From NCBI GenBank assembly GCA_013336205.1, contig JAAXUD010000014.1, positions 1 through 14,692 of the forward strand: DNA of 14,692 nucleotides. Reading direction: 5' to 3'. This document shows, in pieces, positions 1 to 14,692 of the stretch. A program made the position numbers and the translations under genes. How positions within the stretch are numbered: the stretch's first letter is position 1; the number at the start of each line of letters is the position of its first letter. Below the pieces are notes generated by a model. That model ran no database searches. It was not told the DNA's origin and saw only the letters and a list, made by a program, of their open reading frames with translations. The DNA is from Lentimicrobium sp. Its GTDB lineage: Bacteria; Bacteroidota; Bacteroidia; Bacteroidales; Lentimicrobiaceae.

Positions 1-71
1 CTCATAACAGAGTTTGCGAAGGGCTTGTCTGATCTCTGTTTACACAATAATCCTACCCTAAACAATCATTC

Positions 72-102: not shown

Positions 103-2814
103 CACAAAGACTTTTGTACTGGCGCTTCCATTGTTTGACTTAACATTCAGCAGATAGGTTCCGGCAACACAATCACTCAGATCGATTGATTCATCAATAT
201 TGGAAGTTGCGGCTACTCCGCGGGAAAAAATCGTCTTACCGCTCATGTCGTTGATCGTTAATTCAAGCGGAGAAACTTTATCGAGTGAAGCTCCTACCTT
301 AAAAATTCCATTCGAAGGGTTCGGATATATGTTCAATGATCCCTTCAACTTACTGTCTTCAACAGCCGTAGGCTTTGACAATTCAAACCAGTTGATATTA
401 AATTCACCCGAAACTGCGTACAACCGGAGGGTTTGGCTACCCTGGGGCAAATTTATCCTGACCTGAAGGTTTTTCCAGGTCTGCCAACCACCGGTTGAAG
501 GGAAAACTGCAGATCCGACAAAAGTAAAATCTGTACCTGAGCCAATGCGGACATCGAGTTTTCCGATAGTGGAAGTGGTGGCATACCGCAGGTCGAGTGC
601 ATACTCTCCGGCCTCAGGCACATAAATCAGGTAGTCCAGATAATCGCCCGGATTGGCAAAACCGATATTCAGTCCGCCACCGGTATCCGTACAATCCTCC
701 AACTGAAATCCATTATTAAAAAAGAAGGCTTCGGCCTGAATTTTTGCAGGAATGTTAAACCTTGGCGGTAAATTGTTTTTAACATCCTTGTCAGAAAACG
801 CTTCTAATTGCGAGCTGCCGGTTAAGACAGAAGTCCCGGAGTAAGAAATTTTCGCCAGTTGCTGATAGCGGATTTCGGTTTGCAGGCTTACAATAATACC
901 ACGGTTATTCTCAGGATCAGCAATTACAGATTCAACAACGAGTTGTTCTCCGCCGGTTGTTACCTGGAAATCGGCTGGCACTGCGGTGAAAGAAGTGATT
1001 TCCTTGTTCAGAGTGATATGAATTTCATCGCCATCAGTGGATGTAGCGGCAGAAACAAACTGAAAAGGGACAGAACTGACAGGCATTGGGTTGGTGAAAC
1101 TCAGGTAGTTGAAATTAGACCCGGCTCTGTCGAACATCAGCCGCAATTTATGCGTACCTGCCGGAAAAATAATATTGCTGATGGTGGAGGTATTCCAGGT
1201 TTGCCATCCTCCCGTTATGGGAAGGGTGTGTGGCCCGCTGACATCTAAACCATCAACCAGGAGTCTGACAATAGCAGGAGAACCCGAAGCAGAGGCAGAG
1301 CGGAATGATACTGTATAAGCGGCCGCGGTATCTGCCTGAAGCGTAAACTGAAGCCATTCCTTAGCATTGGTATAGCCAACATTGTAGCCATTACTTCCGG
1401 CATCTGTATCCGAACATTTTTCAATATCCACCCCATCATTGCGGTATTCCCAACCGGCATTCCAGTTGACAAAAACGTTGGTATTCAGCCTGTAATTGGC
1501 AGTATCCGTATCCCAATAGGCCGATGAACACCGGCCCAGATCGTAATTAACTGCATGAACCGGTTCACCGGGATGATAAATTCTGAAAGGAATTGTAGTT
1601 GTCGAGAATGGCTGCCTGATCATGGCATCGATTACATCGTGTTTTACCTTGCAGTTCTCTATACGATGACTTTCGGCCCAATCCATCACTGCCGCAAATG
1701 CCTGATCGGCAGTCATTACCGGACTGCCGGTTTTCCAGAAGCTGATAAGGTTGTCGTAATTCTGAGGGGCGGTAACCTCAAGTACATTGTTAATACCATC
1801 CTTTTTCACCGGCCACCACGACCAGCCAATTTTGTTGGTTTCGCTCAGCACGATAAGGTCGGTGAACCAGGAGTTGGAATTTTCGCCGGTCTCACCCAGC
1901 CAGATCGGCACATTGAAATTATTCCGGATTGTTTTCATCCAGTCAATGGAGGCGGGCGTATTATAGTTCCAGTATTTATGAAAACTATAAACCATATTGT
2001 TATCCCATGAAGGAGTTAAGCCGGTATAATCGTTTGCAAACCAGTTACCTTCAATAATGATCATATGGTTGGGGTCAACGGCACGCACTGCGGTGGTTAT
2101 CTGCTGATAGAGTTGTTTCAGCAGGGTACCGCCGGGTAAATCCCAGTTTGGTTCATTGATCAGGTCATAACCACCCATCCAGGGTTCTGTTGCATAGCGA
2201 GCGGCCAGTTTACCCCATAGAGCCACCGTTTTGCGCCTGTTTTCAGGGCTTTCCCAGAGCGAAGGTTTGGTATCGTCATAATCGGAGATATTGGAATCGT
2301 GCCCCTGACCGCCCGGAGCTCCATGAAGATCAAGAATCAGGTACATCTGATTGTCTGCGCACCAGTCGAGCAGGCTATCGATTCGTACAAAACCATCTTC
2401 GAGCCAGGTATCCTGACCTACAATAGGTTCATCTTCAATAGGCAGCGTAAACCATTTGTAATGCATGGCTACGCGCACACTGTTAAATCCCCATACTTTC
2501 ATTGAATCGACATCTGTTCGGGTGAAATGATTGTCTAACCAGGCCTCATAAAAGGTATTGGTATTCTCAACACCGATGGTTTCAATCAGCTTCTCCCTGA
2601 ATTCATGCTGTGTTCCTGCGAAATCAGCAGTTTTCATCATATAGCCTTCCTGAAGCATCCAGTTGCCGGTGCCAATGCCACGCAGGATAATCTCCTGTCC
2701 ATTGCCATCGTGTATATATTTGCCATTGGCATGAAGATACCCCTGAGCGTTCAGTACACCCGTAAAACCGGGCAATAAGCAGGCAATAAGAAATATTTGG
2801 ATCAGTTTTTTCAT
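97..2814 (-). CDS. Secreted multidomain GH5 glycoside hydrolase with two CBM6-like modules and T9SS sorting domain
   Basis: A 905-aa extracellular polysaccharide hydrolase. Residues 1-24 are a signal peptide (MKKLIQIFLIACLL, cleaved near NAQ-G). Residues about 26-375 are a GH5 (beta/alpha)8 catalytic domain: LDLHGAPGG at 162-169, the acid/base Glu221 in LINEP, His279 in SFHKYW, and the nucleophile Glu308 in LGETG. Residues about 413-575 and 685-812 are two CBM6-like beta-sandwiches; both contain GGWQTW. Between them (about 583-680) lies an Ig-like segment. Residues about 822-905 are a type A T9SS C-terminal sorting domain (IYPNPSNG, then GTYLLNV). The family retains configuration and cleaves beta-glycosidic bonds. 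The polymer cannot be fixed from sequence; beta-1,4- or beta-1,3-glucan are reasonable guesses. It stands alone after a 497-bp spacer, so it is probably transcribed separately from rnf. Confidence is high for GH5 and for T9SS export, lower for substrate. Confidence 0.93.
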   Translation of the reverse strand: MKKLIQIFLIACLLPGFTGVLNAQGYLHANGKYIHDGNGQEIILRGIGTGNWMLQEGYMMKTADFAGTQHEFREKLIETIGVENTNTFYEAWLDNHFTRTDVDSMKVWGFNSVRVAMHYKWFTLPIEDEPIVGQDTWLEDGFVRIDSLLDWCADNQMYLILDLHGAPGGQGHDSNISDYDDTKPSLWESPENRRKTVALWGKLAARYATEPWMGGYDLINEPNWDLPGGTLLKQLYQQITTAVRAVDPNHMIIIEGNWFANDYTGLTPSWDNNMVYSFHKYWNYNTPASIDWMKTIRNNFNVPIWLGETGENSNSWFTDLIVLSETNKIGWSWWPVKKDGINNVLEVTAPQNYDNLISFWKTGSPVMTADQAFAAVMDWAESHRIENCKVKHDVIDAMIRQPFSTTTIPFRIYHPGEPVHAVNYDLGRCSSAYWDTDTANYRLNTNVFVNWNAGWEYRNDGVDIEKCSDTDAGSNGYNVGYTNAKEWLQFTLQADTAAAYTVSFRSASASGSPAIVRLLVDGLDVSGPHTLPITGGWQTWNTSTISNIIFPAGTHKLRLMFDRAGSNFNYLSFTNPMPVSSVPFQFVSAATSTDGDEIHITLNKEITSFTAVPADFQVTTGGEQLVVESVIADPENNRGIIVSLQTEIRYQQLAKISYSGTSVLTGSSQLEAFSDKDVKNNLPPRFNIPAKIQAEAFFFNNGFQLEDCTDTGGGLNIGFANPGDYLDYLIYVPEAGEYALDLRYATTSTIGKLDVRIGSGTDFTFVGSAVFPSTGGWQTWKNLQVRINLPQGSQTLRLYAVSGEFNINWFELSKPTAVEDSKLKGSLNIYPNPSNGIFKVGASLDKVSPLELTINDMSGKTIFSRGVAATSNIDESIDLSDCVAGTYLLNVKSNNGSASTKVFVN

Positions 2815-3054
2815 GAAAGTGGGTCGTTAATTATAGTAATTCTGAGTTTTCCCGGACTGTTCAGCCACTAAAGTGACAAACAAAATTAATAAGCAAACTT
2901 AGGTAATTTAAGTTTCATTTGTTGAGAAAGTGATTACATCAATACTACATCAGGGTGAATCCTGAGACATAAGTGACTGATAATAAAAACTTCCGAATTA
3001 AAAATGAAAAAATAAAAAACAGGCTTTGGCCAAATTAAGGTAGGGTGAATTATT

Positions 3055-3088
3055 CAAAAATATTACGCTATTATTATGTAAAGCGTAA
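3055..3088 (-). terminator. Candidate intrinsic terminator of the rnf operon
   Basis: On the minus strand, TTACGCT (3082-3088) and AGCGTAA (3063-3069) form a 7-bp stem around a 12-nt loop, followed directly by TATTTTTG. It lies about 220 nt beyond the rnfA stop. The stem is modest with a large loop, so it could also be an operator-like inverted repeat for the GH5 gene. Confidence 0.33.
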
Positions 3089-3130
3089 AATGTCGCATCG
3101 AATGAAATGTAAGTCTTAACGCTCGATCGA

Positions 3131-3158
3131 ATTTTTACTTTTTACTTTAGACTTTTTA
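3131..3158. repeat. Heptad tandem array 1, left block (4 units)
   Basis: Four consecutive 7-nt units keep exact phase: ATTTTTA, CTTTTTA, CTTTAGA, CTTTTTA. The units match those in the larger block at 3242-3304, from which this block is separated by the GC-rich hairpin at 3170-3207. It is noncoding and follows the rnf operon. Confidence 0.8.
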
Positions 3159-3169
3159 CTTGGTTGCTG

Positions 3170-3207
3170 AGCCTGTCTGCCTGGTTGCCCAGGCTATCAG
3201 GCAGGCT
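3170..3207. repeat. GC-rich hairpin element inside heptad array 1
   Basis: An imperfect inverted repeat. Arm 3170-3179 pairs with 3198-3207 over 10 bp (one G-T wobble, core GCCTGTCTG / CAGGCAGGC). After a 4-nt bulge (3194-3197), CCTGG (3180-3184) pairs with CCAGG (3189-3193) around a TTGC loop. It is markedly more GC-rich than the surrounding spacer. No U-run follows on either strand, so it does not look like an intrinsic terminator. Confidence 0.75.
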
Positions 3208-3241
3208 TTGAGCCCACTTCCACTGCGTTACGTCGGGTAAA

Positions 3242-3304
3242 CTTAGAGCTTTTGACTTTGAGCTTTGAACTTTGAGCTTTGAACTTTTTACTTTGGACTT
3301 TTTA
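3242..3304. repeat. Heptad tandem array 1, right block (9 units)
   Basis: Nine 7-nt units run in exact phase with no insertion: CTTAGAG, CTTTTGA, then CTTTGAG and CTTTGAA alternating twice, then CTTTTTA, CTTTGGA, CTTTTTA. The first two or three bases (CTT) never change and the rest drift. The block starts 7 nt beyond the rnfA stop codon, so it would form part of the 3' UTR of rnf mRNA. Confidence 0.85.
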
Positions 3305-3311
3305 CCTGACA

Positions 3312-3884
3312 CTATACCAAACCGGCAAAACCCATAAAGGCCAGGGAAAGCAGGCCGGCAATAATCAAGGATAGAGGAAAGCCTTTCATCCCGGAAGGTG
3401 CGCCTGTAACTTCAATCTGTTCACGGATTCCAGCCATTAGTATGAGCGCTAATGTAAAACCGGCAGCGGTTGCGCTGGCGTAAATCACGCTTTCAACCAT
3501 TCCATAATCCTTCTGAACTGCAAGAATGGCAATACCGAGAACAGCACAGTTGGTAGTGATAAGCGGTAAGTAAATGCCCAGGGCCTGATACAGCGCCGGA
3601 GCTGCCTTTTTCAGGATAATTTCAACTACCTGAACCAGAAAGGCAATAATAAAAATAAAAGTGATTGTCTGCATAAACTCTATATGCAGTGGCACCAATA
3701 TGAAAAAATGAATGAGGTAGGTAACCAGGTTAGCTAATGCCATTACAAAAATAACGGCCGCACCCATTCCCAGTGATGTTGATACTTTTTGGGAAACACC
3801 CAGAAAAGGACAGATTCCCAGGAATTGCGCCAGAACAACATTGTTAACCAGCAGTGCCAGAATAATTATACTTATCATTTCCAT
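3312..3884 (-). CDS. rnfA: Ion-translocating electron transport complex subunit RnfA
   Basis: A 190-aa integral membrane subunit of the ferredoxin:NAD+ oxidoreductase Rnf, with about six transmembrane helices and the normal family length. It belongs to the RnfA/RnfE/NqrD/NqrE family. Cys25 (in LGICPFLGV) and Cys113 (in TTNCAVLG) are the pair that, with the matching pair in RnfE, holds an intramembrane [2Fe-2S] cluster in known Rnf/Nqr structures; both are present. It is the last gene of rnfBCDGEA, starting 12 nt after rnfE. The start is ATG, with a second in-frame ATG two codons later (MEM); no strong Shine-Dalgarno is visible, so either could be used and translational coupling to rnfE is likely. 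Confidence 0.96.
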   Translation of the reverse strand: MEMISIIILALLVNNVVLAQFLGICPFLGVSQKVSTSLGMGAAVIFVMALANLVTYLIHFFILVPLHIEFMQTITFIFIIAFLVQVVEIILKKAAPALYQALGIYLPLITTNCAVLGIAILAVQKDYGMVESVIYASATAAGFTLALILMAGIREQIEVTGAPSGMKGFPLSLIIAGLLSLAFMGFAGLV

Positions 3885-3896
3885 GGTGTCGCGGAT

Positions 3897-4493
3897 TTAA
3901 ACGTTGTACCTCTTTTTAATCCTGTTCATGATTGCAATCAGGTAACCATAAGTGATAAAAGCACCCGGAGGGAGGATGAAAATCAGGATGGTACTGGCAT
4001 TATCTCCAACCAGTTTAATGTCAAAGATAGAACCATTTCCAAGGAGTTCCCGGATACCACCCATCAGTGTTATAGCAAGGGTAAAACCAATGCCCATTCC
4101 CAATCCATCCAGGATGGCAGGCACAACACTGCTTTTTTGTGCAAATGCTTCTGCCCGTCCCAGAATAATGCAGTTTACAACAATAAGCGGAATAAAAATA
4201 CCCAGTGTAGCATAAAGCTCAGGGGTGAAAGCCTTCATCACCAGATCAACGATGGTAACGAATGTTGCTATAATTACAATAAATGCAGCAATTCTGACCT
4301 TGTTTGGGATGAGGTCTTTGAGTGCTGCAATCATTAGATTTGAAAAAACGAGTACAAAGGTAGTTGCAGCACCCATACCTATTCCATTGATCGCGGCTGT
4401 TGTAACAGCCAGTGTCGGGCAAGTACCCAGCACCAGCACAAAAGTTGGGTTCTCTTTAAATAACCCATTTGTAAAGTATTTTATCTGACTCAT
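3897..4493 (-). CDS. rnfE: Ion-translocating electron transport complex subunit RnfE
   Basis: A 198-aa integral membrane subunit, paralogous to RnfA, with about six hydrophobic helices. Cys25 (in LGTCPTLAV) and Cys108 (in VVNCIILGRAEAFA) match the cluster-binding pair of the family. The GRAEAFA segment after the second Cys separates RnfE from RnfA. In the complex, RnfA and RnfE form an inverted pseudo-symmetric pair that passes electrons across the membrane through a shared [2Fe-2S] centre. The ATG overlaps the rnfG stop in an ATGA (4490-4493). A strong AAAGGAGG lies 7 nt upstream within the rnfG coding end, which supports both this start and translational coupling. Confidence 0.96.
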   Translation of the reverse strand: MSQIKYFTNGLFKENPTFVLVLGTCPTLAVTTAAINGIGMGAATTFVLVFSNLMIAALKDLIPNKVRIAAFIVIIATFVTIVDLVMKAFTPELYATLGIFIPLIVVNCIILGRAEAFAQKSSVVPAILDGLGMGIGFTLAITLMGGIRELLGNGSIFDIKLVGDNASTILIFILPPGAFITYGYLIAIMNRIKKRYNV

Positions 4494-5107
4494 TGATTGC
4501 CCTCCTTTGTTAATGTAGAATCAACCGCAATTGCAGCGCCAGATCCAAAGTTTTTTATAAAAACATTGTATGCTTTCTGAACTCCGTCACAAAATGCTCT
4601 TGAACTAATCGTTGCTGCTGAAATCGCATCAATAGTACCTCCATCCTTTTTAACTTTAAGTTCTTTCAGCTGAAGTGCGCCGATATCAAGCGTATTAAAC
4701 TGATTTTTAAATTTAGGCTCTTTCATTTTAGTTCCCAGCCCCGGGGTTTCTTTTTGCTCAAGAACCACTATATTAAAAATCTTACCATCAGGCAGGAAGC
4801 CAACCATCAGGTCGAACCGCCCGGAATAGCCTTTTTCGGTGAAAGTTTTAATCGCACAGCCCACAGATTGTCCTCCTTTTGTTGCCGGATAGCAGGTAAG
4901 ATTATCTATTACCACCACTCCGGTAGTAGGATCGTTGTCAAACTCAGGCAGAACCTCTTTAACAGCATTCACTTCTTTTGCTTTGATTGCCTTTGCTATC
5001 GGGTCTTTGGTAAGATTATAAACAAACCCTAAAGCAGCTGACATTACCAGTGAAATGAAGAAAAGGGAAAGAATCATATTTCTCAGCGTAGAATCCAGCT
5101 TTGTCAT
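4490..5107 (-). CDS. rnfG: Rnf complex FMN-binding subunit RnfG
   Basis: A 205-aa subunit with an N-terminal transmembrane helix (about residues 9-30) and a C-terminal FMN-binding domain on the outer face of the membrane. FMN is attached covalently through a phosphoester to Thr in a D-x-[ST]-G-A-T motif. Here the motif reads DAISAATIS at 160-168, so Thr166 is the predicted attachment site, with Ala replacing the usual Gly. The ETPGLGTKM segment (120-128) is also typical of this fold. It lies 33 nt after rnfD and overlaps rnfE by 4 nt. FMN loading normally requires an ApbE flavin transferase, which is not encoded in this window. Confidence 0.95.
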   Translation of the reverse strand: MTKLDSTLRNMILSLFFISLVMSAALGFVYNLTKDPIAKAIKAKEVNAVKEVLPEFDNDPTTGVVVIDNLTCYPATKGGQSVGCAIKTFTEKGYSGRFDLMVGFLPDGKIFNIVVLEQKETPGLGTKMKEPKFKNQFNTLDIGALQLKELKVKKDGGTIDAISAATISSRAFCDGVQKAYNVFIKNFGSGAAIAVDSTLTKEGNQ

Positions 5108-5140
5108 TTGTGATTTCTTTAATATTTTATTTCACATGGA

Positions 5141-6148
5141 TTATTTAACAACCAGCACTTCACCAAACCTCCGGGGCTTAAAGGCCTTATTTATCAATGG
5201 CGTAAAAGCGTTCATGATCAGGATTGCAAATGAAACACCCTCAGGATAAGCACCCCAAACCCTGATAAGTATTGTGAGGATACCTGCACCCACGCCATAA
5301 ACCAGCTGGCCCCTGGGAGACATAGGAGAGGATGACATATCTGTCGCCATATAAAACACACCTAAGATCATACCACCGGCCAGTAAATGCATCAAAGGGT
5401 CAATGTAATGCGTTGGGTCGATGAGCCAGAAAATACCTGAAAAAACAACGGCTGAACCAATATAAGCAACCGGAATGTGCCAGGTGATTATCTTACGCAA
5501 AAACATATAGGCTGCGCCCAGCAGCAAAGCGATGGCGGATATTTCACCCATAGAACCCGCCTGTGCACCCATCATATCATTAAGATAGCCCGGAAAATCA
5601 GGTGAGGCCATTAGTTCCTGCACTGTTTTGCCTGCATTAAGCCCTTCTTTGAGAATGCCAAGTGTGGTTGGCCCGGTGATGGCATCGGTAACTGAAGAAT
5701 CAAACAATGCCTTTGGCAAAGGCCAGGAAGTCATTTGTACAGGAAATGAAATCAACAGAAAAACCCTGCCGATCAGCGCCGGATTAAAAGGGTTTTTCCC
5801 CAATCCGCCGAATGACATTTTGGCTATCCCAATAGATACAAGCGCTCCGATAATGATCATCCATGCCGGAAGGTTAGCAGGTACATTAAATGCCAGCAAT
5901 ACACCGGTCACCAGCGCGCTGCCATCTGTAATGGTAACCGGGCCCTTTAAAAGATACTTCTGAATTATCCATTCGAAAAACAGGCAGGCAGCTACCGATA
6001 TTAAAATTACACGGGCGGCGTCCAATCCAAAAAAGTAAACAGAAACAAAAATGGCCGGAATCATTGCCACAACAACACCATACATGATGGATTTCACATT
6101 CTGGTGATCGTGTACATGGGGTGAACCCGAAATTTTTAGTAAACTCAT
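5141..6148 (-). CDS. rnfD: Rnf complex membrane flavoprotein subunit RnfD
   Basis: A 335-aa polytopic membrane protein of the NqrB/RnfD family, which carries a covalent FMN and is thought to form part of the ion path. The N-terminal SGSPHVHD is family-typical. Hydrophobic helices cover most of the length, and the loop GGLGKNPFNPALIGR (114-128) is strongly conserved. The covalent-FMN motif is TDAITGPTTLG (154-164), which predicts Thr161 as the attachment residue, but Pro stands where the common [ST]-G-A-T motif has Ala. The ATG starts one nucleotide after the rnfC stop, so the two are translationally coupled. Length and topology are otherwise normal. Confidence 0.96.
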   Translation of the reverse strand: MSLLKISGSPHVHDHQNVKSIMYGVVVAMIPAIFVSVYFFGLDAARVILISVAACLFFEWIIQKYLLKGPVTITDGSALVTGVLLAFNVPANLPAWMIIIGALVSIGIAKMSFGGLGKNPFNPALIGRVFLLISFPVQMTSWPLPKALFDSSVTDAITGPTTLGILKEGLNAGKTVQELMASPDFPGYLNDMMGAQAGSMGEISAIALLLGAAYMFLRKIITWHIPVAYIGSAVVFSGIFWLIDPTHYIDPLMHLLAGGMILGVFYMATDMSSSPMSPRGQLVYGVGAGILTILIRVWGAYPEGVSFAILIMNAFTPLINKAFKPRRFGEVLVVK

Positions 6149-6149
6149 A

Positions 6150-7481
6150 TTATTTCTTCCCCCTATTTCTGATAATTATTCCAACTTTATTTTTTCCAAG
6201 CCTGAGATAATCAAGCAAAGGGCGACCAGCCGGGCAGGTAAAATGACAGGAACCACATTCCATACAATCAAGTATCCGTTCTTTTTCTGCCATTTCATAT
6301 TGCTGATTTTCAGATAACTGAGCTAACAGCACCGGTTCCAGTCCCATTGGGCAAACATGAATACAACGGGCACATCTGATGCAATTTGAAACCGGCACCC
6401 TGAAACTTTCCTTTTCAGACATAACCAGAATTCCGGAAGTTCCTTTATTAACCGGCACATCCAGCGATGTGAGTGACCTGCCCATCATCGGACCGCCATT
6501 AATCACTTTTCCAGTATCATCGGGAAGACCACCGGCGAATTCAATCAGCGTATTCACGGAGGTGCCAATGCGTACCAGCAGGTTTGAAGGCTTTTTCAGT
6601 GATTTACCGGTAACGGTTACCACCCTGTCGATCAATGGTTTATTTTTTTGAACGGCTTCGTAAACGGCGAGGGCTGTACCCACATTATTTACGACACAAC
6701 CAACCTCAATCGGTAATTTACCGGAAGGCACTTCACGATTTAATACTGCCTTTATCAATTGTTTTTCACCGCCCTGAGGATATTTAACTTTGAGTGGCAC
6801 TATTTCAATTCCGGGAAACTCACTACTGAGTTTACGCAGATGATCTATCGCATCGGGCTTGTTTCTTTCGATGCCAATCCAGGCCTGGTTTACATTCAGC
6901 CCTTTCATCAGAATTTTAATCCCGATCATCAATTCACGGCCCCGTTCCAGCATAAGCCGGTGATCTGAAGTCAGATAAGGTTCACATTCTACACCATTGA
7001 TCAACAGGTGTTCGGCTTTTTTACCATCCGGAACCATTAATTTCACATGAGAAGGGAAAGTAGCACCACCAAGGCCAACCACGCCCATCTCATTTATCTT
7101 CTTAATAATTTCTTCACGGGTAAGTTTAATTTCAGTGATTATATCTTTACTCCGGTCAATGCCTTCGTCCCACTCATCGCCTGCTACATCAATAAAAACC
7201 GCCGGTCTTTTGTAGCCTGAAGTATCAATTACTTCATCTATTTTGACAACTTTTCCGGAAACGGATGAATGTACATTCGATGAAATAAAAGCTTCACCTC
7301 TGGCAATTAATTGACCTGTTTTGACAATGGCTCCTTTTTCAACCACAACTTTTGATGGAGCTCCAAGGCTCTGAGAAACAGGAATGCAAACTTTTTCAGG
7401 AACAGGCAATATCTCTATGCCGGCTCCGGCGGAAAGCTTGTTTTCTTCAGGATGAACACCACCAATTTTAAATGTCTTCAA
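6150..7481 (-). CDS. rnfC: Rnf complex NADH-binding iron-sulfur flavoprotein subunit RnfC
   Basis: A 443-aa peripheral subunit, the NAD(H)/FMN site of Rnf. An N-terminal barrel-sandwich (about 1-100) precedes the Complex I 51-kDa-like flavin/NADH domain: GLGGATFPSHVKL at 136-148, NGVECEPYLTSDHRLM at 162-177, PQGGEKQ at 235-241. An SLBB-like segment follows (about 260-350). Two ferredoxin-type motifs end the chain, Cys367/370/373/377 and Cys406/409/412/416, for two [4Fe-4S] clusters. The long C-terminal repeat tail of E. coli RsxC is absent, as in many anaerobes. The start is TTG (7479-7481): no in-frame ATG or GTG lies between it and the upstream stop, and GGAGGA sits 8 nt before it. Gene spacing is 52 nt after rnfB and 1 nt before rnfD. 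Confidence 0.96.
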   Translation of the reverse strand: MKTFKIGGVHPEENKLSAGAGIEILPVPEKVCIPVSQSLGAPSKVVVEKGAIVKTGQLIARGEAFISSNVHSSVSGKVVKIDEVIDTSGYKRPAVFIDVAGDEWDEGIDRSKDIITEIKLTREEIIKKINEMGVVGLGGATFPSHVKLMVPDGKKAEHLLINGVECEPYLTSDHRLMLERGRELMIGIKILMKGLNVNQAWIGIERNKPDAIDHLRKLSSEFPGIEIVPLKVKYPQGGEKQLIKAVLNREVPSGKLPIEVGCVVNNVGTALAVYEAVQKNKPLIDRVVTVTGKSLKKPSNLLVRIGTSVNTLIEFAGGLPDDTGKVINGGPMMGRSLTSLDVPVNKGTSGILVMSEKESFRVPVSNCIRCARCIHVCPMGLEPVLLAQLSENQQYEMAEKERILDCMECGSCHFTCPAGRPLLDYLRLGKNKVGIIIRNRGKK

Positions 7482-7489
7482 ATTATGAA

Positions 7490-7495
7490 TCCTCC
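7490..7495 (-). promoter_or_regulatory. Ribosome binding site that fixes the TTG start of rnfC
   Basis: GGAGGA on the minus strand, 8 nt before the TTG at 7479-7481. The next in-frame stop lies about nine codons upstream with no ATG or GTG in between, so the TTG is the best start. Confidence 0.75.
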
Positions 7496-7533
7496 AGTGA
7501 TTTGGTTTTTAAAAAATCGTTGGGATAATGTCT

Positions 7534-8406
7534 TTATAATTCCGTTTGCTCAGTCACTTTCGCAGTATCACCTGATTTTTCTTTGCGGGCCGGGAAATTC
7601 ATTTCCAGGATGGCACTTGTGGGGCATACCGGTTCACACTTGCGACACAACCTGCATTTATTATAATCAATGTAGGCCAGGTTGTTTACCATGGTAATTG
7701 CTTCATATGGACACTCCTTAACGCATTTACCACAGCCGATACAAGCTACAGCGCAATTTTTCTTTGCAGGACCACCTTTTTCAGTATTAACACAAGAAAC
7801 AAATATCCTGCGATCCTTTTTCCCTTTGAGCCGCAATTCAATAATACTTCGCGGACAGGCTGTAACACAGGCACCGCAGGCGACACAATTTTCATCGCTA
7901 ACCACTGGTAAACCCGTAACCTCATCAATGTAAATTGCATCGAAATTGCAGGACACCACACAATCCCCCAATCCTAGGCATCCATTTGGGCATCCGCTCT
8001 CCCCAGCCGACAGCACATGGGCAAAAGCGCAGGAGGTGGCACTGTCGTAAATCACTTTTGCAGGAGCATTTACCCTGCTGCCACTGCATCTTACAACCGC
8101 AATCATCGGATCTTTCTCAGGTGCTTCCAGCCCCAGGGCTGCAGCTACCTGCTTCATGGTATCGTTTCCACCGACCGGGCAATTAAGTTTGGATAAATCG
8201 GTAGATTTCACCAACTCTTCCGCAAATGCGCGACAACCGGCTAAGCCGCAACCACCGCAGTTTGCCCCCGGTAAAAGGTCTGCAACGATGTCAATTCGCG
8301 GATCTTCAATAACTTTGAATTTCCGGGCAACGAAGTAGAGGATAATAGCAGAGATGACTCCGATTGCGCTTAATGAAATTACAGCAAAAACAAGGGTTTC
8401 GTTCAC
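7534..8406 (-). CDS. rnfB: Rnf complex ferredoxin-type iron-sulfur subunit RnfB
   Basis: A 290-aa electron-input subunit, thought to take electrons from reduced ferredoxin. A single N-terminal transmembrane anchor (about 5-27) is followed by the Fe4S domain Cys50/53/58/76 (GANCGGCGLAGC). After this come four ferredoxin-like Cys sets: 139/143/149/153, 174/177/180/184, 222/225/228/232 and 251/254/257/261. That gives about five candidate [4Fe-4S] sites, the long anaerobe-type RnfB (E. coli RsxB is about 190 aa). Extra cysteines sit at 107, 126, 205 and 218. It is the first gene of the operon. The start is GTG (8404-8406), supported by AAAGGA 7 nt upstream and by the hydrophobic N-terminus beginning there. 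The C-terminal tail after about residue 272 is short, polar and poorly conserved. Confidence 0.96.
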   Translation of the reverse strand: MNETLVFAVISLSAIGVISAIILYFVARKFKVIEDPRIDIVADLLPGANCGGCGLAGCRAFAEELVKSTDLSKLNCPVGGNDTMKQVAAALGLEAPEKDPMIAVVRCSGSRVNAPAKVIYDSATSCAFAHVLSAGESGCPNGCLGLGDCVVSCNFDAIYIDEVTGLPVVSDENCVACGACVTACPRSIIELRLKGKKDRRIFVSCVNTEKGGPAKKNCAVACIGCGKCVKECPYEAITMVNNLAYIDYNKCRLCRKCEPVCPTSAILEMNFPARKEKSGDTAKVTEQTEL

Positions 8407-8413
8407 GGTTTGA

Positions 8414-8419
8414 TCCTTT
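8414..8419 (-). promoter_or_regulatory. Ribosome binding site that fixes the GTG start of rnfB
   Basis: AAAGGA on the minus strand with 7 nt between it and the GTG at 8404-8406. Together with the transmembrane anchor starting at residue 5, it supports the GTG over any internal start. Confidence 0.7.
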
Positions 8420-8468
8420 ATTATTGGCGTTTTGTCTGTTTTCTTATGGGATAATACTCAGGACGAGA

Positions 8469-8495
8469 CAAATGTAGCAACAATTAAAAAATCAA
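8469..8495 (-). promoter_or_regulatory. Candidate Bacteroidota-type promoter for rnfBCDGEA
   Basis: TACATTTG (8469-8476, minus strand) fits the Bacteroidota -7 consensus TAnnTTTG. A TTG at 8493-8495 could serve as the -33 box, but the 16-nt gap is shorter than the usual 19-21. Transcription would start near 8462, giving a leader of roughly 55 nt. Only the -7 box is a good match. Confidence 0.35.
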
Positions 8496-8533
8496 CCGAG
8501 ATTACAGAGATATTTTCACCTTAATTTTAATAC

Positions 8534-8609
8534 CTGATTATCAATAGATTACATCATAATATATATACATTTTTTTATATACGTATAATATTAGACTCTG
8601 ATTATCAAT
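8534..8609. repeat. 12-bp direct repeat pair upstream of rnfB
   Basis: CTGATTATCAAT occurs at 8534-8545 and again, identical, at 8598-8609. The copies are 64 bp apart start to start, about six helical turns, which would place them on the same face of the DNA. The intervening 52 bp are extremely AT-rich and hold the palindrome TATACGTATA. A paired operator is possible; function unknown. Confidence 0.5.
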
Positions 8610-8828
8610 TCATAACGATTTCTGTTTAGAATTCTTATAAATAGCGCTTTTATTGACTTAAAAACTCAAATTAAACAATCTGGTAAAAAAAATCCGCTCA
8701 TTCGATTAGGGAATTGTTTGTAATTCACAAAAAACATCTAATACATAGTTGAATTGCGAAAATTTCCAAATCGGGATTTATCTCTGTATAGCGATTCATC
8801 TTTACACTATAATCTCTCAATTCAGGTT

Positions 8829-8869
8829 AAAATAAAAAGCCACTGCCTTTTACAAAAACAGTGGCTTTT
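8829..8869 (-). terminator. Intrinsic terminator of the 1045-aa T9SS protein gene
   Basis: An 11-bp perfect stem, AAAAGCCACTG (8859-8869, minus strand) with CAGTGGCTTTT (8835-8845), a 13-nt loop, then a T-rich tail (TTTTTATTTT on the minus strand). It lies 18 nt beyond the stop codon. Because the stem ends are A/T runs, it could also work in the other direction. It separates this gene from rnf. Confidence 0.85.
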
Positions 8870-8886
8870 ATTACAATAAGAAAATC

Positions 8887-11800
8887 CTATTGCAAAATAA
8901 TTTTAACTGTTGTTGATACTGAAGCGGCAGATAATTTCAGCATATAAATGCCCTTAGGTCTATTTGTTAGGTCCAGCATGGTTTTAAACAGCTGCTCACT
9001 GCTGCTGAATTGTTTTTCAATTACCAACTCCCCTTTTGAATCAGTTACAAATAATTTACAACTCAGATTTAATGGAATTCCGGAAATTTCAACACTGAAT
9101 TTTCCATTGGTTGGATTAGGCAAAATCTTTACCGATGGTTGATTTTGTGACTCAACACCAAGACATTGCGAAAACTGCACAGTTTTCAATGCAGTTTCAT
9201 CGTTGCAGCCAAAGGGACTTGTTGCAGTTAGACTCAAGGTTACCGCACCCTGAATTGTATCCTGGGTTCCGGGAAGATACCAGGTGGCCAGCTCCTGGGC
9301 ATTCTCAAAAGTACCGTTTCCTGAGCTGGTCCAAAGCCACGATCCTGCATTTAAAGCATTACCACTGACCAGAATACCTGATGTTTTGCAGATGGTTGTA
9401 TCGTTTCCAGCCGCAACAACCGGCAATGGATTTATAGTAACTGCAAGTTGATCAGTAACATCAGGGCATCCACCCAGGCCGTAGGCTGTAACATCAAGTA
9501 ATGCCTGCCCGTTTATAATCTCAAGTGCACCGGGCTCGTAGATAGCTCCAGGTACCAGTGGATCAGCAAACTGCCCATCGCCGGAAGTTTGCCATTGAAT
9601 TGCGCTAAAATTCTGTGCTATGGCATCCAGGGTTATACTTTCGCCGGCACAGGCAGCTAAATCAGCTCCTGCTGAAAGTATAACAGCCGGAACAATGGAA
9701 ATGTCAGTTGTATCAGCAACATTTGGACAGGAGGTATTGCCATAGGCTGTAAAAAACAGGTCAACACTTCCGGCCAATATATCAGCGTTTCCAGGCGTAT
9801 ATAAAGGATTTGCAATACCAGGATCAGAAAAACTACCATCTCCCGTTGAGATCCAGGCAATAGAACTAAAGTCTGTTGCAACACCCGAAAGTTGAACCGG
9901 TGCTCCGTTACAGCTTACTACTGATAATCCGGCATTAACCGTGGGGGCTTTATTAATAACAAGTACCAGTGAATCTGAGGCATTTCCACAGTCAACCCCA
10001 CTCTGAACATTAATCACAAGCACCACGCTACCGGTTTCAAGGTCAATATTACCAGGCAGATACTCAGTAGCCAATAATGAGGCATCAGTAAAAGTCCCAT
10101 CTCCCCTGCTGGTCCATAAAACAGTGCTGTGGCCTGCTGCTTCCGCGGCAAGCGAAACGGAATTGCCGGCACAAACAGCTAAATCATCAAAAGCATTAAC
10201 TGAAGGTGAAGGATTTACAACTACCGTTACCGAAGAGGTTGCCGTATTTCCATTATTAGTAACCGTAATAGTATAAGTGGTGGTTACTTCAGGAGAAACC
10301 AACGGATTTGAAACATTGGCGGTAAACCCCTCCGGAGAAGAACTCCATTCATATTGCAGATTAAAAGCGCCACCTGTTACATCCACACTTAACTGAGTAC
10401 TTTCACCGGCACAGATAGTATCCGGACTAGCTGATGCTTCAGCGATCAGTGGAATTCCGAATGTAAAAGAACCTACACGGGTTTTCCAGCCCTGATTACT
10501 GGTTGAAGTATAATATTCCTGAGTATACCAGAATATTGAATTATTGGACGGATCTACCGACATCATACTGTAATCGCCCCAGCGCCTATAGGAAGAAGTT
10601 TGAGACCCGCCACCGGCGACAATATCCAGTTCTGCAAATGTCATTTCTCCCAGGGGATCGCCTGCTCTTCGTCCGGTAACCCTGATAGAGGGAAATAAGG
10701 AAGCGCTGGAAGCGGAATAACCCAGGGCAATATCACCAAAGCTGTTCATGGCCACAGAGCCCATCCAACGTGAGGTTGCGTCGGGCGAGTAGGTTCCCTG
10801 CTGATAAATCTGCCAGCCCGAACCCGTATTGCGTAATTCGTACCAGCGAACGCCTGCATGTCCGGAAACGTTAACAGTATGGTTGGTAACCATAGTCTGA
10901 TAGGTTCCAAAGTTCCGGTATTGAAGCCGGTACATCAATCTGTCGGAAATTGCCTGAAGGGTGGTTGATGTTCCATTTTGTGCAACGCCTGAAATATTTG
11001 AGCTAAAAGGCACAGTCGGCAAAGTAACCAACAACCCGAATGTTGAATTGGCCGGAGTTGTCCAGTCAACATCCAGTGCATAAAATTCAAGTTTATCGGG
11101 TGAACCATCGCGCACATACCCAAACAAACCGGGGCTGTCGGCCGGCGCAGGCGTGCCATCACAATCGGCTGGCAAAAAGCTGGAAGGATTCCCGCTGGCC
11201 GGGGTAGTAAAAAACACCATAGATGCGGTCGGATCTCCAGCCAGCATTTTATCACGCTCAAGCGCAGCAACGCCGGTACCGCCCCAATTGAGACTTCCGG
11301 CAGTAAATGAATTGACAGACAGGTAATAAGCATCGTGCCAGACACCCAGTTTCGGATAGTCAGGCATATTGGTAAATGTAAAGGCATAACGGTACCATGA
11401 ACCGGTAGGATCGCCGGTCTGTGAAACTGCAATCAGCTCATAGAAAGGACCGTAGGGATAATTTGGCAATGCAAACTGACTGGCCACCCAACGATCAGCG
11501 GCTTCATCGTAAAGCACTACCGGGTCGCCATCATTTGAACCAGACCAGGGGCCTGGAAAACCACTCCAAAGCGTACTATTATCGGCCGGACCGTAGACCA
11601 TAGTGCCGGTCTTATCCCAGATAGCAAACGACATATTTACCATTTGCATATAATGATTTATTCCCACATCTCCCTGTGTATCAGGAGGCAACACGCCATT
11701 TTCGTTACCAACCCCGTTTACGCTTACCAGCAATTCACTTTCGCGGTTTCCCTGACGGTACTGGACATTTTGAAAATCAGCTTCCGTAGCTTCGGGCAAT

Positions 11801-12024
11801 GGCAAATTGCGGTGCTCTGGCATGTTCAGCTTGTTTTTCACAACGCCGTCCTTCCAGCCATGATCGCGCAAACCAGGTTGGATTACAGTCACATCACGCA
11901 AAGGGAGTGACACATCAAAATAAACTGCGTTTGATATTATTGTTGGCTTAAATATTTCATCCTGTGCAAAAAGGCTAAAACAAAATCCAAAAGTCAGCAA
12001 AAAAGTAGCAATGGTATATTTCAT
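8887..12024 (-). CDS. Large secreted T9SS-sorted protein with four 87-residue Ig-like repeats
   Basis: A 1045-aa exported protein of unknown function. Residues 1-20 form a signal peptide (cleavage near LFA-QDE). Residues about 95-525 form one domain with motifs PPDTQGDVG (113-121), GDPVVLYDEAADRW (166-179) and RRWGDYSMMSVDP (480-492). I recall these motifs from uncharacterised secreted bacterial proteins; a beta-propeller-like fold is a guess. Residues about 530-605 are PKD/Ig-like (TTTYTITVTNNG). Residues about 609-950 hold four tandem repeats with Cys at 618/679, 705/766, 792/853 and 879/940. Residues about 963-1045 are a T9SS type A sorting domain (ILPNPTNGKFSV, then GIYMLKL). It probably sits on or leaves the outer membrane surface, perhaps as an adhesin or binding protein. 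No catalytic motif is recognised. It is unexpectedly placed between rseC and rnfB. Confidence 0.88.
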   Translation of the reverse strand: MKYTIATFLLTFGFCFSLFAQDEIFKPTIISNAVYFDVSLPLRDVTVIQPGLRDHGWKDGVVKNKLNMPEHRNLPLPEATEADFQNVQYRQGNRESELLVSVNGVGNENGVLPPDTQGDVGINHYMQMVNMSFAIWDKTGTMVYGPADNSTLWSGFPGPWSGSNDGDPVVLYDEAADRWVASQFALPNYPYGPFYELIAVSQTGDPTGSWYRYAFTFTNMPDYPKLGVWHDAYYLSVNSFTAGSLNWGGTGVAALERDKMLAGDPTASMVFFTTPASGNPSSFLPADCDGTPAPADSPGLFGYVRDGSPDKLEFYALDVDWTTPANSTFGLLVTLPTVPFSSNISGVAQNGTSTTLQAISDRLMYRLQYRNFGTYQTMVTNHTVNVSGHAGVRWYELRNTGSGWQIYQQGTYSPDATSRWMGSVAMNSFGDIALGYSASSASLFPSIRVTGRRAGDPLGEMTFAELDIVAGGGSQTSSYRRWGDYSMMSVDPSNNSIFWYTQEYYTSTSNQGWKTRVGSFTFGIPLIAEASASPDTICAGESTQLSVDVTGGAFNLQYEWSSSPEGFTANVSNPLVSPEVTTTYTITVTNNGNTATSSVTVVVNPSPSVNAFDDLAVCAGNSVSLAAEAAGHSTVLWTSRGDGTFTDASLLATEYLPGNIDLETGSVVLVINVQSGVDCGNASDSLVLVINKAPTVNAGLSVVSCNGAPVQLSGVATDFSSIAWISTGDGSFSDPGIANPLYTPGNADILAGSVDLFFTAYGNTSCPNVADTTDISIVPAVILSAGADLAACAGESITLDAIAQNFSAIQWQTSGDGQFADPLVPGAIYEPGALEIINGQALLDVTAYGLGGCPDVTDQLAVTINPLPVVAAGNDTTICKTSGILVSGNALNAGSWLWTSSGNGTFENAQELATWYLPGTQDTIQGAVTLSLTATSPFGCNDETALKTVQFSQCLGVESQNQPSVKILPNPTNGKFSVEISGIPLNLSCKLFVTDSKGELVIEKQFSSSEQLFKTMLDLTNRPKGIYMLKLSAASVSTTVKIILQ
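9175..10200 (-). repeat. Four tandem 87-codon repeats within the T9SS protein gene
   Basis: Protein repeats start near residues 609, 696, 783 and 870. The shared pattern is V-x-A-G-x-D…C near the start, then W-x-[ST]-[RTS]-G-[DN]-G-x-F, a Y-x-P-G turn, and a second Cys near the end. The two cysteines are 61 residues apart in every unit, and equivalent positions repeat every 87 residues (261 bp) with no indel. The units have diverged in sequence while keeping length. Confidence 0.88.
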
Positions 12025-12194
12025 AGTTTAAGTGTTGGTTTTCTTTTACAATACTCCGTTAAGAATTTTTAAATCATTGATTAGCAAGGCATTATTCAAA
12101 TGCATTTTGAAATTAGAAATCATTCAGGATCAATTCATTGCGTCTTTGCGTCATTGCGTGATTCTTAAATTTACCGGACTATTACTTTTATGAA
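12025..12194. other. 170-bp spacer between rseC and the T9SS protein gene
   Basis: AT-rich and noncoding. It contains the 8-nt-period mini-array at 12136-12159. No confident promoter for the T9SS gene or terminator for rseC was found. Confidence 0.55.
12136..12159. repeat. Octad tandem mini-array (3 units)
   Basis: Three 8-nt units in exact phase: CATTGCGT, CTTTGCGT, CATTGCGT, followed by GATTCTTA, which keeps little of the pattern. On the minus strand the units read ACGCAATG / ACGCAAAG. It is noncoding, in the spacer after rseC. Confidence 0.65.
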
Positions 12195-12614
12195 TTATAG
12201 TTCAATTGTGAACCTGAACTTCCGTTGAAACCTGTCTTTCAGTAAATAAAGACCTGCATAATAAGGCGCCAGTAAACCAATGGAGATTAATCCGGCAATG
12301 CCTTCACTGGTGAAATTTACCAGAATAACCAGGGCAAGAATAAGAATTACAAATGGAATCAGGTAACCGAAAACGACGGCAAGATTGCCATTGGAAGCAT
12401 CCATGCTCACGTTTACCAGTTGACCCGGTTTAACATCCGGTGCTCCGTTGCGATCTACTTCTATTATTTTTTCCGACATATCAGAAGAAGAACAGACTCC
12501 TTGTACCTGGCAGGAAGCGCATGCACTTATGCTCAGAATTTTAACATAAATCTTCTGGTTATCGAGGTGATCGATAATTCCGCTTTTTGCAATACAATCC
12601 TTTGCCGGAGTCAT
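12195..12614 (-). CDS. rseC: RseC/MucC-family membrane protein (SoxR-reducing system RseC-like)
   Basis: A 139-aa inner-membrane protein of the RseC/MucC family. The N-terminal cytoplasmic part carries Cys7 and the motif Cys32-x2-Cys35-x5-Cys41 (SACASCQVQGVC), the family's cysteine signature and a possible iron-sulfur or thiol redox site. A beta-strand region with KPGQLVNV (62-69) is followed by two transmembrane helices (about 77-101 and 106-125). In gamma-proteobacteria, RseC is tied to sigma-E signalling and, with Rsx/Rnf, to SoxR reduction. In Bacteroidota it commonly directly precedes rnfB and probably supports Rnf assembly or redox state (inference). Here it starts 20 nt after the SDR gene, and rnfB lies 3.8 kb further on. 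Start ATG at 12612-12614. Confidence 0.88.
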   Translation of the reverse strand: MTPAKDCIAKSGIIDHLDNQKIYVKILSISACASCQVQGVCSSSDMSEKIIEVDRNGAPDVKPGQLVNVSMDASNGNLAVVFGYLIPFVILILALVILVNFTSEGIAGLISIGLLAPYYAGLYLLKDRFQRKFRFTIEL

Positions 12615-12634
12615 TCAGTATCTTTTAGAAATTA

Positions 12635-13336
12635 TCAGGGAGTTGACAAAGATACAGGCAAAACCTTTCCGTTGAAATATTTATGTCCATTCATTGCAAA
12701 ATCGGCTACAAAGGTTGCCATACCAATAGCAGTAACAGGGGCATTATAACCGGGAAATGCTTTGGCCAGCATCTCCGTCTGCACAGATCCGAAAGCCAGG
12801 CAATTCACAGAAATCTTCTTCTCTGCCAATTCAGCGGCCAGGCACTCGGTCAACACCGACAATGCGCCCTTACTGGCACTGTAAACTGAAAGTCCGGAAA
12901 ATTTAACACTTCCCTGCACACCGCCCATACTGCCAATGTTAACAACGTGCGAGCCGGGTTTCAGCAGGGGAATCAGCGCCTGTGTCAATAGTAAAGGTGC
13001 TTTCACATTTACATTGAAAACATCGTCTATCTCAGCAGCAGTAATCTGCCCCAGTGGTTTGTTCAATAATGTTCCGGCGTTGTTGATCAGAATATCGATC
13101 TTGCCCAGCTGCCGGTTAATCTGGAGTGCCAGGTTTTCTATGTCGCCTTTGGCGAGGTCAAACTGTATCGGTTGAACCACTGTTTCCTGTTTCCTGATGT
13201 TGCATTCACCGGCCAGTGCCTGAATTTTCATTACACTGCGGGCTATTACGATAATTCTGTTGCCCGATATATCTGCAAGTATCCTGGCTGTCTCAAGTCC
13301 GACACCTGAGGAAGCGCCTGTTATTACTATGTTCAT
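12635..13336 (-). CDS. Short-chain dehydrogenase/reductase (SDR) family oxidoreductase
   Basis: A 233-aa classical SDR with a Rossmann fold. The N-terminal dinucleotide loop is TGASSGVG (6-13), followed by IARS with Arg33, which hints at NADP(H) preference. FDLAKGD at 59-65 would contact the adenine ring. NNAG lies at 85-88. The catalytic residues are probably Ser136 (NIGSMGG) with Tyr152 and Lys156 (YSASK). It is slightly short at the C-terminus, which ends soon after the last beta-strand (NGKVLPVSLS). The substrate cannot be predicted; the family spans sugars, steroids, fatty acyl chains and more. It is cotranscribed with rseC by spacing (20 nt). A heptad-array spacer separates it from hydF. 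Start ATG at 13334-13336. Confidence 0.9.
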   Translation of the reverse strand: MNIVITGASSGVGLETARILADISGNRIIVIARSVMKIQALAGECNIRKQETVVQPIQFDLAKGDIENLALQINRQLGKIDILINNAGTLLNKPLGQITAAEIDDVFNVNVKAPLLLTQALIPLLKPGSHVVNIGSMGGVQGSVKFSGLSVYSASKGALSVLTECLAAELAEKKISVNCLAFGSVQTEMLAKAFPGYNAPVTAIGMATFVADFAMNGHKYFNGKVLPVSLSTP

Positions 13337-13398
13337 ATTTTTTATTCTAAATTATTGATATTATTGGTTCTGTTTGAATAGGTCAAAGGAGATGGAAA

Positions 13399-13419
13399 AT
13401 TTCTAATTTCCAATTTCCA
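13399..13419. repeat. Heptad array 2, left block (3 units)
   Basis: Three 7-nt units in phase: ATTTCTA, ATTTCCA, ATTTCCA. The unit is a close variant of the main block beginning at 13441. Confidence 0.65.
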
Positions 13420-13440
13420 ACCTGATTATTCTTACCGCTG

Positions 13441-13496
13441 ATTTCTCATTTCTCATCTCTCATCTCTCATCTCTCATTTCTCATTTCCGACTTCCG
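13441..13496. repeat. Heptad array 2, main block (8 units)
   Basis: Eight 7-nt units in exact phase: ATTTCTC twice, ATCTCTC three times, ATTTCTC, ATTTCCG, ACTTCCG. The unit drifts in steps along the array rather than scattering at random. The block ends directly at the palindromic element (13499-13512). Confidence 0.85.
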
Positions 13497-13498
13497 TC

Positions 13499-13512
13499 CC
13501 TATAGCTATCGG
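13499..13512. repeat. Near-perfect palindrome inside heptad array 2
   Basis: CCTATAGCTATCGG departs by one base from a perfect 14-bp palindrome (CCGATAGCTATCGG). It lies between the main heptad block and the two-unit block at 13519-13532, the same position that the GC-rich hairpin holds in array 1. Confidence 0.6.
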
Positions 13513-13518
13513 AATCTT

Positions 13519-13532
13519 ACTTCTGACTTCAG
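13519..13532. repeat. Heptad array 2, right block (2 units)
   Basis: ACTTCTG and ACTTCAG, two 7-nt units related to the ACTTCCG unit at 13490-13496 on the other side of the palindrome. The block ends 2 nt from the hydF stop codon, so the array would belong to the hydF 3' UTR. Confidence 0.6.
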
Positions 13533-13534
13533 TT

Positions 13535-14692
13535 TTACAGATAATCAACCTTGCCACTATTCTCTGATAAAAACGGCGCTACCGCCCGGTTATAAATACC
13601 GTGCACCCAGGCAATGGCCATACCGTAATTCGTAACCGGAATCCCGGCGTCTATAGCTGGCTTTAGCCTGTTTATTATCTGTTTCCGGGTGATCATACAA
13701 CCACCGCATTGGATGACCATCGCATAATTATGGATATCCACAGGAATCTTGCTCAGTCCGGCAACCACTTCATATTCCAACTTTTTACCGGTATAATTCC
13801 CAAGCCAACGGGGTATTTTAACCCGGCCGATGTCATCGCAGGAAACATGGTGGGTGCAAGATTCAAGTATCAGTATTCTGTCACCATCCTTCAGATTGGC
13901 AATATGCGGGGTACCTTTAAGATAATTCTGAAAATCACCGCGTTGGCGTGCCAGCAATATGCTGAAACTGGTGAGCGGAATTTCTTTCGGGACCGAGGCA
14001 TCTGCTTTCAGGAAAACCTGGCTATCGGTTATCACCAGGGCCGGCTTTGGGTTCATACGGCGGATAAAACTATCTGCCTCGCGCTCTTTACAAACCACTG
14101 CAATTCCATCGTGGTCAAGAATATCGCGGATCGCCTGAACCTGGGGCAGTATCATCCGGCCTTCCGGTGCTTCAATATCTATAGGCGTTATCAGCAAAAC
14201 AACATCGCCATAAGAAATCAGATCGCCCAACAACGATGGCGAAGTATAAGCTGTTTCAGGAATCAACTTTTGCATGGTAGCAATTACCTTGTCAACCTCA
14301 GACTTCAGGGTAGCACTTAAGTCAATCACCGGAACCTTGTATTGCTCAATCAGTTTAAACCTGAATTCATCTGAAATTGGTACAAGATCACTTTTGTTGT
14401 GAACAATCAGAAATGGAACAGCATTTTCTTCAAACGCTGCCACCAATCCGGTTTCAGGATCACCAAATGAATTGTCAGTAATAACCAGGATAGCCAGATC
14501 GATTATTTTCAGTGCTTCCCGCGATTTGGCAACTCTTTTGGCTCCAAGATCACCCACATCATCAATGCCGGCAGTATCAATAATAATTACCGGACCAATG
14601 CCGGCAATTTCCATTGATTTCTTCACCGGATCGGTGGTGGTGCCGGCAACTTCCGACACAATAGCCAGCTCCTGCCCTGCCAGGGCATTAAT
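13535..14692 (-). CDS. hydF: [FeFe] hydrogenase H-cluster maturation GTPase HydF (5' end off window)
   Basis: Partial gene. The frame stays open to the right edge, giving 385 of perhaps 400 residues. HydF is the scaffold on which HydE and HydG assemble the [2Fe] subcluster before transfer to apo-hydrogenase. The visible start INALAGQELAI follows directly on where the Walker A loop would end. Then come GTTTDP (switch I/G2), DTAGIDD (G3, DxxG) and NKSD (G4); TDNSF and DLSAT are also typical. The C-terminal domain carries the [4Fe-4S] ligands: CTHH, then 46 residues from the His of CxH to the residue before CGGC. That residue is Gln here rather than the common His. The GTG at 14657-14659 is an internal codon (Val), not the start. 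Partner genes hydE, hydG and hydA are not in the window. Confidence 0.95.
   Translation of the reverse strand: MNALAGQELAIVSEVAGTTTDPVKKSMEIAGIGPVIIIDTAGIDDVGDLGAKRVAKSREALKIIDLAILVITDNSFGDPETGLVAAFEENAVPFLIVHNKSDLVPISDEFRFKLIEQYKVPVIDLSATLKSEVDKVIATMQKLIPETAYTSPSLLGDLISYGDVVLLITPIDIEAPEGRMILPQVQAIRDILDHDGIAVVCKEREADSFIRRMNPKPALVITDSQVFLKADASVPKEIPLTSFSILLARQRGDFQNYLKGTPHIANLKDGDRILILESCTHHVSCDDIGRVKIPRWLGNYTGKKLEYEVVAGLSKIPVDIHNYAMVIQCGGCMITRKQIINRLKPAIDAGIPVTNYGMAIAWVHGIYNRAVAPFLSENSGKVDYL

Follow-up and report, generated by a model that had tools for sequence, protein, structure and literature searches.

The spacer between hydF and a short-chain dehydrogenase (SDR) gene of Lentimicrobium sp. 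holds blocks of heptanucleotide repeats with a near-palindrome among them, and the question it raises is whether such a spacer is one element or several pieces of different origin. The DNA analysed, here called the window, is a stretch of 14,692 nucleotides (contig JAAXUD010000014.1, positions 1 to 14,692). A first-pass annotation, made from the letters alone, had seen a similar array elsewhere in the window (array 1) and had proposed one genome-wide class of element, set by period and layout. That proposal held up only in part: a lag-7 excess was found in other spacers, but the array was absent from the congeners measured, the palindrome was a dispersed sequence in its own right, present in places without heptads too, the hairpin of array 1 was a different one, and heptanucleotide repeats have already been described. 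We consider it probable that the spacer is instead a mosaic of slippage-grown heptads with no conserved role and a later-inserted 18-bp palindrome with a 4-bp target duplication. The features concerned are listed in Table 1.

Table 1. Features of the hydF-SDR spacer and its two flanking genes, in window coordinates.
Feature	Position	Strand	Content or basis
Heptad block 1	13399-13419	.	ATTTCTA ATTTCCA ATTTCCA; short matches at many places in the own genome
Linker of blocks 1 and 2, overlapping both block edges	13418-13446	.	Common to own contig C699 only
Heptad block 2	13441-13496	.	Eight units, ATTTCTC and ATCTCTC types, ending ATTTCCG ACTTCCG
TCCG, presumed left copy of 4-bp target duplication	13493-13496	.	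Paralog comparison
18-bp palindrome, decayed copy (TCCCTATAGCTATCGGAA) of the TCCCGATAGCTATCGGGA family	13497-13514	.	Sequence matches and phase test
TCTT, presumed decayed right copy of target duplication	13515-13518	.	Overlap 4, 12/18 matches
Heptad block 3	13519-13532	.	ACTTCTG ACTTCAG; two units only
hydF, C-terminal part, cut by window end; upstream gene	13535-14659	-	HydF_dimer, HydF_tetramer, MMR_HSR1
SDR; downstream gene	12635-13336	-	adh_short

The heptads of this spacer are real tandem units of period 7, beyond chance. At lag 7, identity over 13399-13533 was 0.609, whereas dinucleotide shuffles averaged 0.315 (z 7.5); across lags 2 to 29, none of 2000 shuffles matched the observed value. 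Taken by piece, the lag-7 signal was strong in 13399-13440 (p 0.0005) and 13441-13487 (0 of 2000 shuffles) and weaker in 13488-13533 (p 0.11), so that block 3, with its two units (13517-13533, p 0.0015), is weak alone; Tandem Repeats Finder independently reported 13398-13420 and 13441-13487. The positions given by the first-pass annotation for three blocks (3 + 8 + 2) and a near-palindrome (CCTATAGCTATCGG, 13499-13512) were confirmed, as was its statement that the array stops 2 nt short of the upstream hydF stop codon (TTA, 13535-13537, minus strand). The names given to the HydF, SDR and Rnf subunit genes of the window were supported by Pfam. At up to 3 mismatches, the linker at 13418-13446 was found at two places in the own genome.

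The common layout that had been claimed for the two arrays of the window stands loosely, but the hairpin of array 1 (3172-3205) is unrelated in sequence to the palindrome of the hydF spacer. Array 1 (window 3132-3305) belongs to another composite, in which heptads accompany a CCTGTCTG...CAGGCAGG hairpin; that hairpin is found again, together with ACTTTTT/CTTTGAG heptads, in two further own contigs (L133:3640-3786; L357 near 10907), and a fixed linker, GTTACGTCGGGTAAACTT, is common to the array 1 composites. A short octamer array of the TCATTGCG type was also observed at window 12135-12163.

Arrays of this kind are widespread in the genome. We scanned 47 own contigs chosen regardless of heptads, the window's contig included, having dropped 13 that had been picked for earlier matches; these gave 86 spacers (18.7 kb), with edges that are approximate since a simple longest-ORF gene caller was used. 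The spacers held 23 lag-7 clusters, as compared to 0.6 in five shuffles, 7 clusters at lag 8 (0.2 in shuffles) and 0-1 at every other lag below 14. Absence of a lag-7 excess from other spacers had been named in advance as grounds for abandoning the proposed class, and in this respect the class survived. The excess was present more weakly in samples of four other genomes (25 clusters vs 1.6 in G223, 7 vs 1.0 in G277, 5 vs 1.0 in G001 and 3 vs 0.2 in G158), where lag 7 was not the top lag throughout: G277 had 18 clusters at lag 21, and G223 had 19 at lag 14 and 18 at lag 15.

The heptad units are not arbitrary, since a few related ones recur in own spacers: ACTTTTT/ACTTTAG/GCTTTGA, ATTTCTC/ATTTCTA/ATTTCCA, ACTTCCG/ACTTCTG and GGATTTC, with octamers (such as GATTAGCA and ACGCAAAG) beside them. 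A vocabulary of units common to the whole class Bacteroidia was considered and dropped: an ACTTYNR triple occurred in 93 of 295 class genomes, but this fails to show unit specificity because the mirror control was also common in several of them (G094, G038, G031, G137). Units differed sharply among congeners, with ACTTYNR triples numbering 57 + 46 (mirror 0) in G223 and 4 + 2 (mirror 40 + 21) in G094.

Such a distribution could reflect a genome-wide regulatory class set by period and layout, in which the heptads would be protein-binding sites or would act downstream of the stop codon in the mRNA, and the hairpin would be part of the signal. The lag-7 excess is in keeping with that reading, and so is placement. 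The position beside an upstream stop codon, proposed as a general feature, received weak support: among 12 array-bearing own spacers, five had an array starting no more than 5 nt from the upstream stop, and none had one starting that close to the downstream start codon. All 12 lay between co-directional genes, as compared to 57 of all 86 spacers, but arrays outside co-directional spacers are present in G223 and in the own contigs picked for matches. Translational regulation has moreover been proposed for TAACTGA repeats by MacGregor, in the part of that account available to us (PMC4679880). Both arrays of the window are purine-rich in the mRNA sense, but a strand polarity was not borne out in the own arrays (12 vs 11), though G223 gave 11 vs 5. 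No Rfam family reached threshold in the spacer, the one match (15.5 of 44.4 bits gathering score) being sub-threshold and inside hydF; the fold was no better than that of shuffles (z 0.55; 140 of 200 shuffles folded at least as well), and 3 promoter-like sites (1.3 expected) and 0 terminators were predicted. Three reading frames of 23-32 aa overlap the spacer.

The lack of conservation at the locus itself also speaks against a regulatory class. A search with the SDR gave 20 strong loci (L027-L046), namely the own locus, 18 congeners and one genome of the same order, and the SDR adjoined hydF in 17 of the 18 congener loci. The spacer was measured in 13 congeners; left out were four more distant ones with no usable end points and one without hydF in reach. 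Ten of these spacers were 30-90 bp long and three were longer (162, 220 and 230 bp). Not one of the 13 passed the lag-7 test, which the window spacer passes twice; the array was therefore gained and lost rather than kept, and it is fast-changing, not conserved. This was the comparison of orthologous spacers that the first-pass annotation had itself suggested, and it went against the proposed class. Two of the longer spacers passed at other lags: the 162-bp spacer (L028) at lag 8, and the 230-bp spacer of G018 (L033), filled by a period-6 AACCTC/AACCTT array, at lag 6. In the L031 spacer, heptad-like words could be seen by eye, with no run passing the lag-7 test, and clear similarity to the window was confined to the SDR leader (36 nt, 81%), the arrays giving weak matches of 14-19 nt. 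Weighing the two sides, we think it quite unlikely that the arrays form a regulatory class. We regard the heptads as neutral or selfish repeat DNA because no RNA family at threshold, terminator, unusual fold, strand preference in the own arrays or conservation was found.

The palindrome has a different history of its own. The near-palindrome of the window is one step from CCGATAGCTATCGG and one step from a copy of TCCCGATAGCTATCGGGA. At up to 1 mismatch, CCNATAGCTATCGG gave 48 + 48 matches in the own genome, a total in which a palindromic site counts on both strands, vs 1 + 1 for the reversed control. The 16-bp core CCCGATAGCTATCGGG occurred in 84 of 295 class genomes, in up to 60 copies, with zero for the reversed control among the matches listed. 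Within the genus, 9 of 19 genomes (own included) carried the palindrome, at 0-26 copies per genome. When GTDB genomes were scanned for palindromes with ACTTCYG no more than 25 nt away, 116 stretches were recovered, and among the 80 listed with titles were 79 Bacteroidota names and one Desulfosporosinus MAG. From these 80 loci we took 70 sites, dropping attC-like sites and sites too near an end, and examined the 60 nt on the side not used for selection: ACTTC occurred 38 times and GAAGT once, as compared to 4 and 2 one kilobase away. The heptads therefore keep their direction from one side of the palindrome to the other, and they do so well outside the own genome. A period-7 flank was found at 7 of 18 own palindromes vs 6.7% of random own-spacer positions, an enrichment that is biased upward by the few loci fetched with a heptad query. 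The palindrome was also found at sites without heptads. It is a separate dispersed sequence, widespread in Bacteroidia and located inside directional heptad arrays in many Bacteroidota.

Some copies lie in other surroundings. In G297, a good match to RNase P RNA (L214:52-447, minus strand) has CCCGATAGCTATCGGG as one stem and CCCCGATAG..GTATCGGGG as another. Two tRNA-like stretches in L215 of the same genome carry the palindrome at about the position of the variable arm; a tRNA host was not upheld, as ARAGORN called no tRNA there. At flavobacterial loci (L220, L222, L226, L227, L255, L267, L293 and similar ones) the palindrome is embedded in a repeated sequence that is attC-like and has inverted ends (GGCTATAAGTAATTGC ...).

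A record of how the palindrome came to lie in heptads is the phase of the repeats on its two sides. A mismatch-tolerant test was applied to 248 palindrome sites, of which 31 had heptads clearly continuing from flank to flank. The overlap was exactly 4 bases at 23 of these 31 array-embedded sites, as compared to 1.1 of 5.1 in shuffled pairs. The 23 sites comprised seven own (the window copy included, at 12/18 matches), one in G297 and fifteen GTDB-scan loci, counted regardless of shared descent (L230 and L278 are from one MAG, and L332 has two). Exact duplications were present at 16 of the 23 and involved ten different tetramers after strand collapse, AGAA/TTCT accounting for six. We infer from these alignments that the four-base jump is probably a target-site duplication. 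The duplicated letters follow the host array, and several separate insertion events would therefore be needed.

Over all sites, with the element taken as 18 bp long, exact 4-bp duplications flanked 28 of 246 vs about 3.0 expected, and 218 of 246 were without one. By set, the counts were 8/18 in the own genome (0.66 expected), 14/137 in the GTDB-scan loci (1.7), and 3/47 (0.22), 3/37 (0.4) and 0/7 in the remaining sets. Duplications of 5 bp occurred at 5/47 sites in one set (0.37 expected) and of 3 bp at 5/47 (1.5 expected) and 3/7 (0.9); none of 6-8 bp was found in the sets counted. Where periodic flanks were lacking, a 4-bp duplication was rare, being present at 2/8 own sites, 5/85 in other genomes and 6/101 in GTDB-scan loci. 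Either the sites without periodic flanks are older, or another process also makes copies.

Paralogous contigs of the same genome have the module too. The presumed duplicates of the window (TCCG and TCTT) differ at two positions; in the modules of C362 and C8 the TCCG duplication is perfect, and the module of C777 has TCCG/TCTG. In C699, the same linker and block order occur with plain heptads in place of the window palindrome, so that this contig may serve as a paralogous approximation of the empty site. Beside the common linker of C699 (L132 near 19663-19740), a CCTGCCAGCCGGCAGG palindrome, absent from the window, was observed between two TTAGAAATT copies; it is possibly a second inserting palindrome. 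An exact orthologous empty site was not found in one attempt, which compared three relatives with G223. The flanks were 63, 70 and 91 bases apart in the relatives vs 475-494 in G223, which holds both palindromes; the relatives' spacers are shorter as a whole, and thus only gain or loss of the whole spacer is visible. Free half-palindromes were absent from 345 kb of the own genome and 397 kb of G223, and one was found in 380 kb of G001.

The same four-base step might arise as a by-product if palindrome and heptads were made jointly, by template switching or fold-back copying in replication. Duplications are indeed concentrated in array-embedded copies, on reading, the CCGA arm of the palindrome is similar to the ACTTCCGA heptads, and no enzyme was found for the palindrome. 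Yet arrays built from different units contain one and the same 18-bp sequence, the duplicated tetramers are of ten kinds, and the palindrome occurs also at heptad-free sites and in an RNase P RNA stem; local copying would not yield one fixed sequence across families. We judge joint origin unlikely. A REP element moved by a RAYT (Y1 transposase) would likewise be a dispersed intergenic palindrome, and Y1_Tnp genes were present in all 18 genomes searched, but an intact palindrome lay within about 1.5 kb of Y1_Tnp at just 2 of 30 loci (one more copy had 3 mismatches). To our knowledge, Y1 enzymes are not expected to duplicate their target. By reading, the sequence also has no GTAG or CGTC tag, which the available text on REP sequences gives as the rule (PMC3733652), and mobilization by a RAYT appears very improbable.

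Under the mosaic reading, the reconstructed order of events would be as follows. Heptanucleotide repeats, intergenic and variable among relatives, most likely grew and were lost through replication slippage, without a conserved function towards either hydF or SDR. Later, the 18-bp palindrome would have been inserted into the ACTTCCG part of the array, presumably by a putative enzyme, duplicating four target bases (TCCG), now TCCG and TCTT. The insertion would have divided a single array into blocks 2 and 3, giving the appearance of heptads, palindrome and heptads. It is possible, though we would not call it likely, that this 18-bp palindrome without internal sequence is a mobile DNA unit that has spread through Bacteroidota, moved in trans by the putative enzyme, making 4-bp (sometimes 5-bp) target duplications and preferring short-period intergenic arrays. 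If so, it would rank with the smallest transposing sequences known. By themselves the heptads are ordinary; since a heptad array works as a ruler that preserves the four-base step, the record of insertion left by the palindrome can be counted in many public genomes. The ruler effect lets one ask which enzyme moves so small a unit and what makes short tandem arrays the places where it lands. It is also a warning against taking heptad-hairpin-heptad spacers for one regulatory element.

Among known systems, the cyanobacterial small dispersed repeats of Elhai 2008 are reportedly very small and apparently mobile. Together with the STRR heptamers, they offer the same pairing of tiny mobile-looking repeats and heptamer arrays, in another phylum and with other sequences; three STRR units were looked for as tandem pairs in the window and were absent. 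REP and REPIN sequences with their RAYTs are also short palindromes dispersed in spacers, whereas the palindrome described here is not tied to Y1_Tnp genes, and its array-embedded copies are flanked by 4-bp duplications.

The class to which the heptads belong has been described, while a description of the palindrome was not found in the literature searched; the GATAGCTATCGGG letters were not found there either, which is weak evidence that none is in print, given that most subscription journals and letters within figures lie outside that literature. Intergenic heptanucleotide long simple sequence repeats (LSSRs) are over-represented in some genomes (Mrazek 2007, as summarised in the accessible parts of PMC4679880 and PMC4692102), and polymerase slippage is proposed there as their origin. 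Period 7, intergenic location and variability between related species are shared with the present arrays, whose 7-nt units are beyond chance and whose presence varies among relatives. Those accounts, in their accessible parts, have no inserted palindrome, and the units here are of the ATTTCTC, ACTTCCG and ACTTTTT types. The TAACTGA repeats (MacGregor 2015, PMC4679880, in the part available) are heptamer direct repeats in spacers, some Bacteroidetes included, and the same account gives mixed heptamers in spacers of Gramella and Aequorivita that are absent from close relatives. They differ in having a single unit, which in the main genome mostly lies a short way upstream of the start codon, and the window held no TAACTGA tandem pairs. 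A fixed-length direct duplication, as in a MITE, flanks the array-embedded copies of the palindrome and is lacking from most non-array copies. The BrickBuilt MITE of Porphyromonas gingivalis, as far as the available text describes it (PMC4596501), likewise joins an intergenic tandem repeat to a miniature inverted-repeat element in a member of the Bacteroidota; its 23-nt unit lies inside the MITE itself, whereas the palindrome here lies inside separate heptad arrays, and does so in many families.
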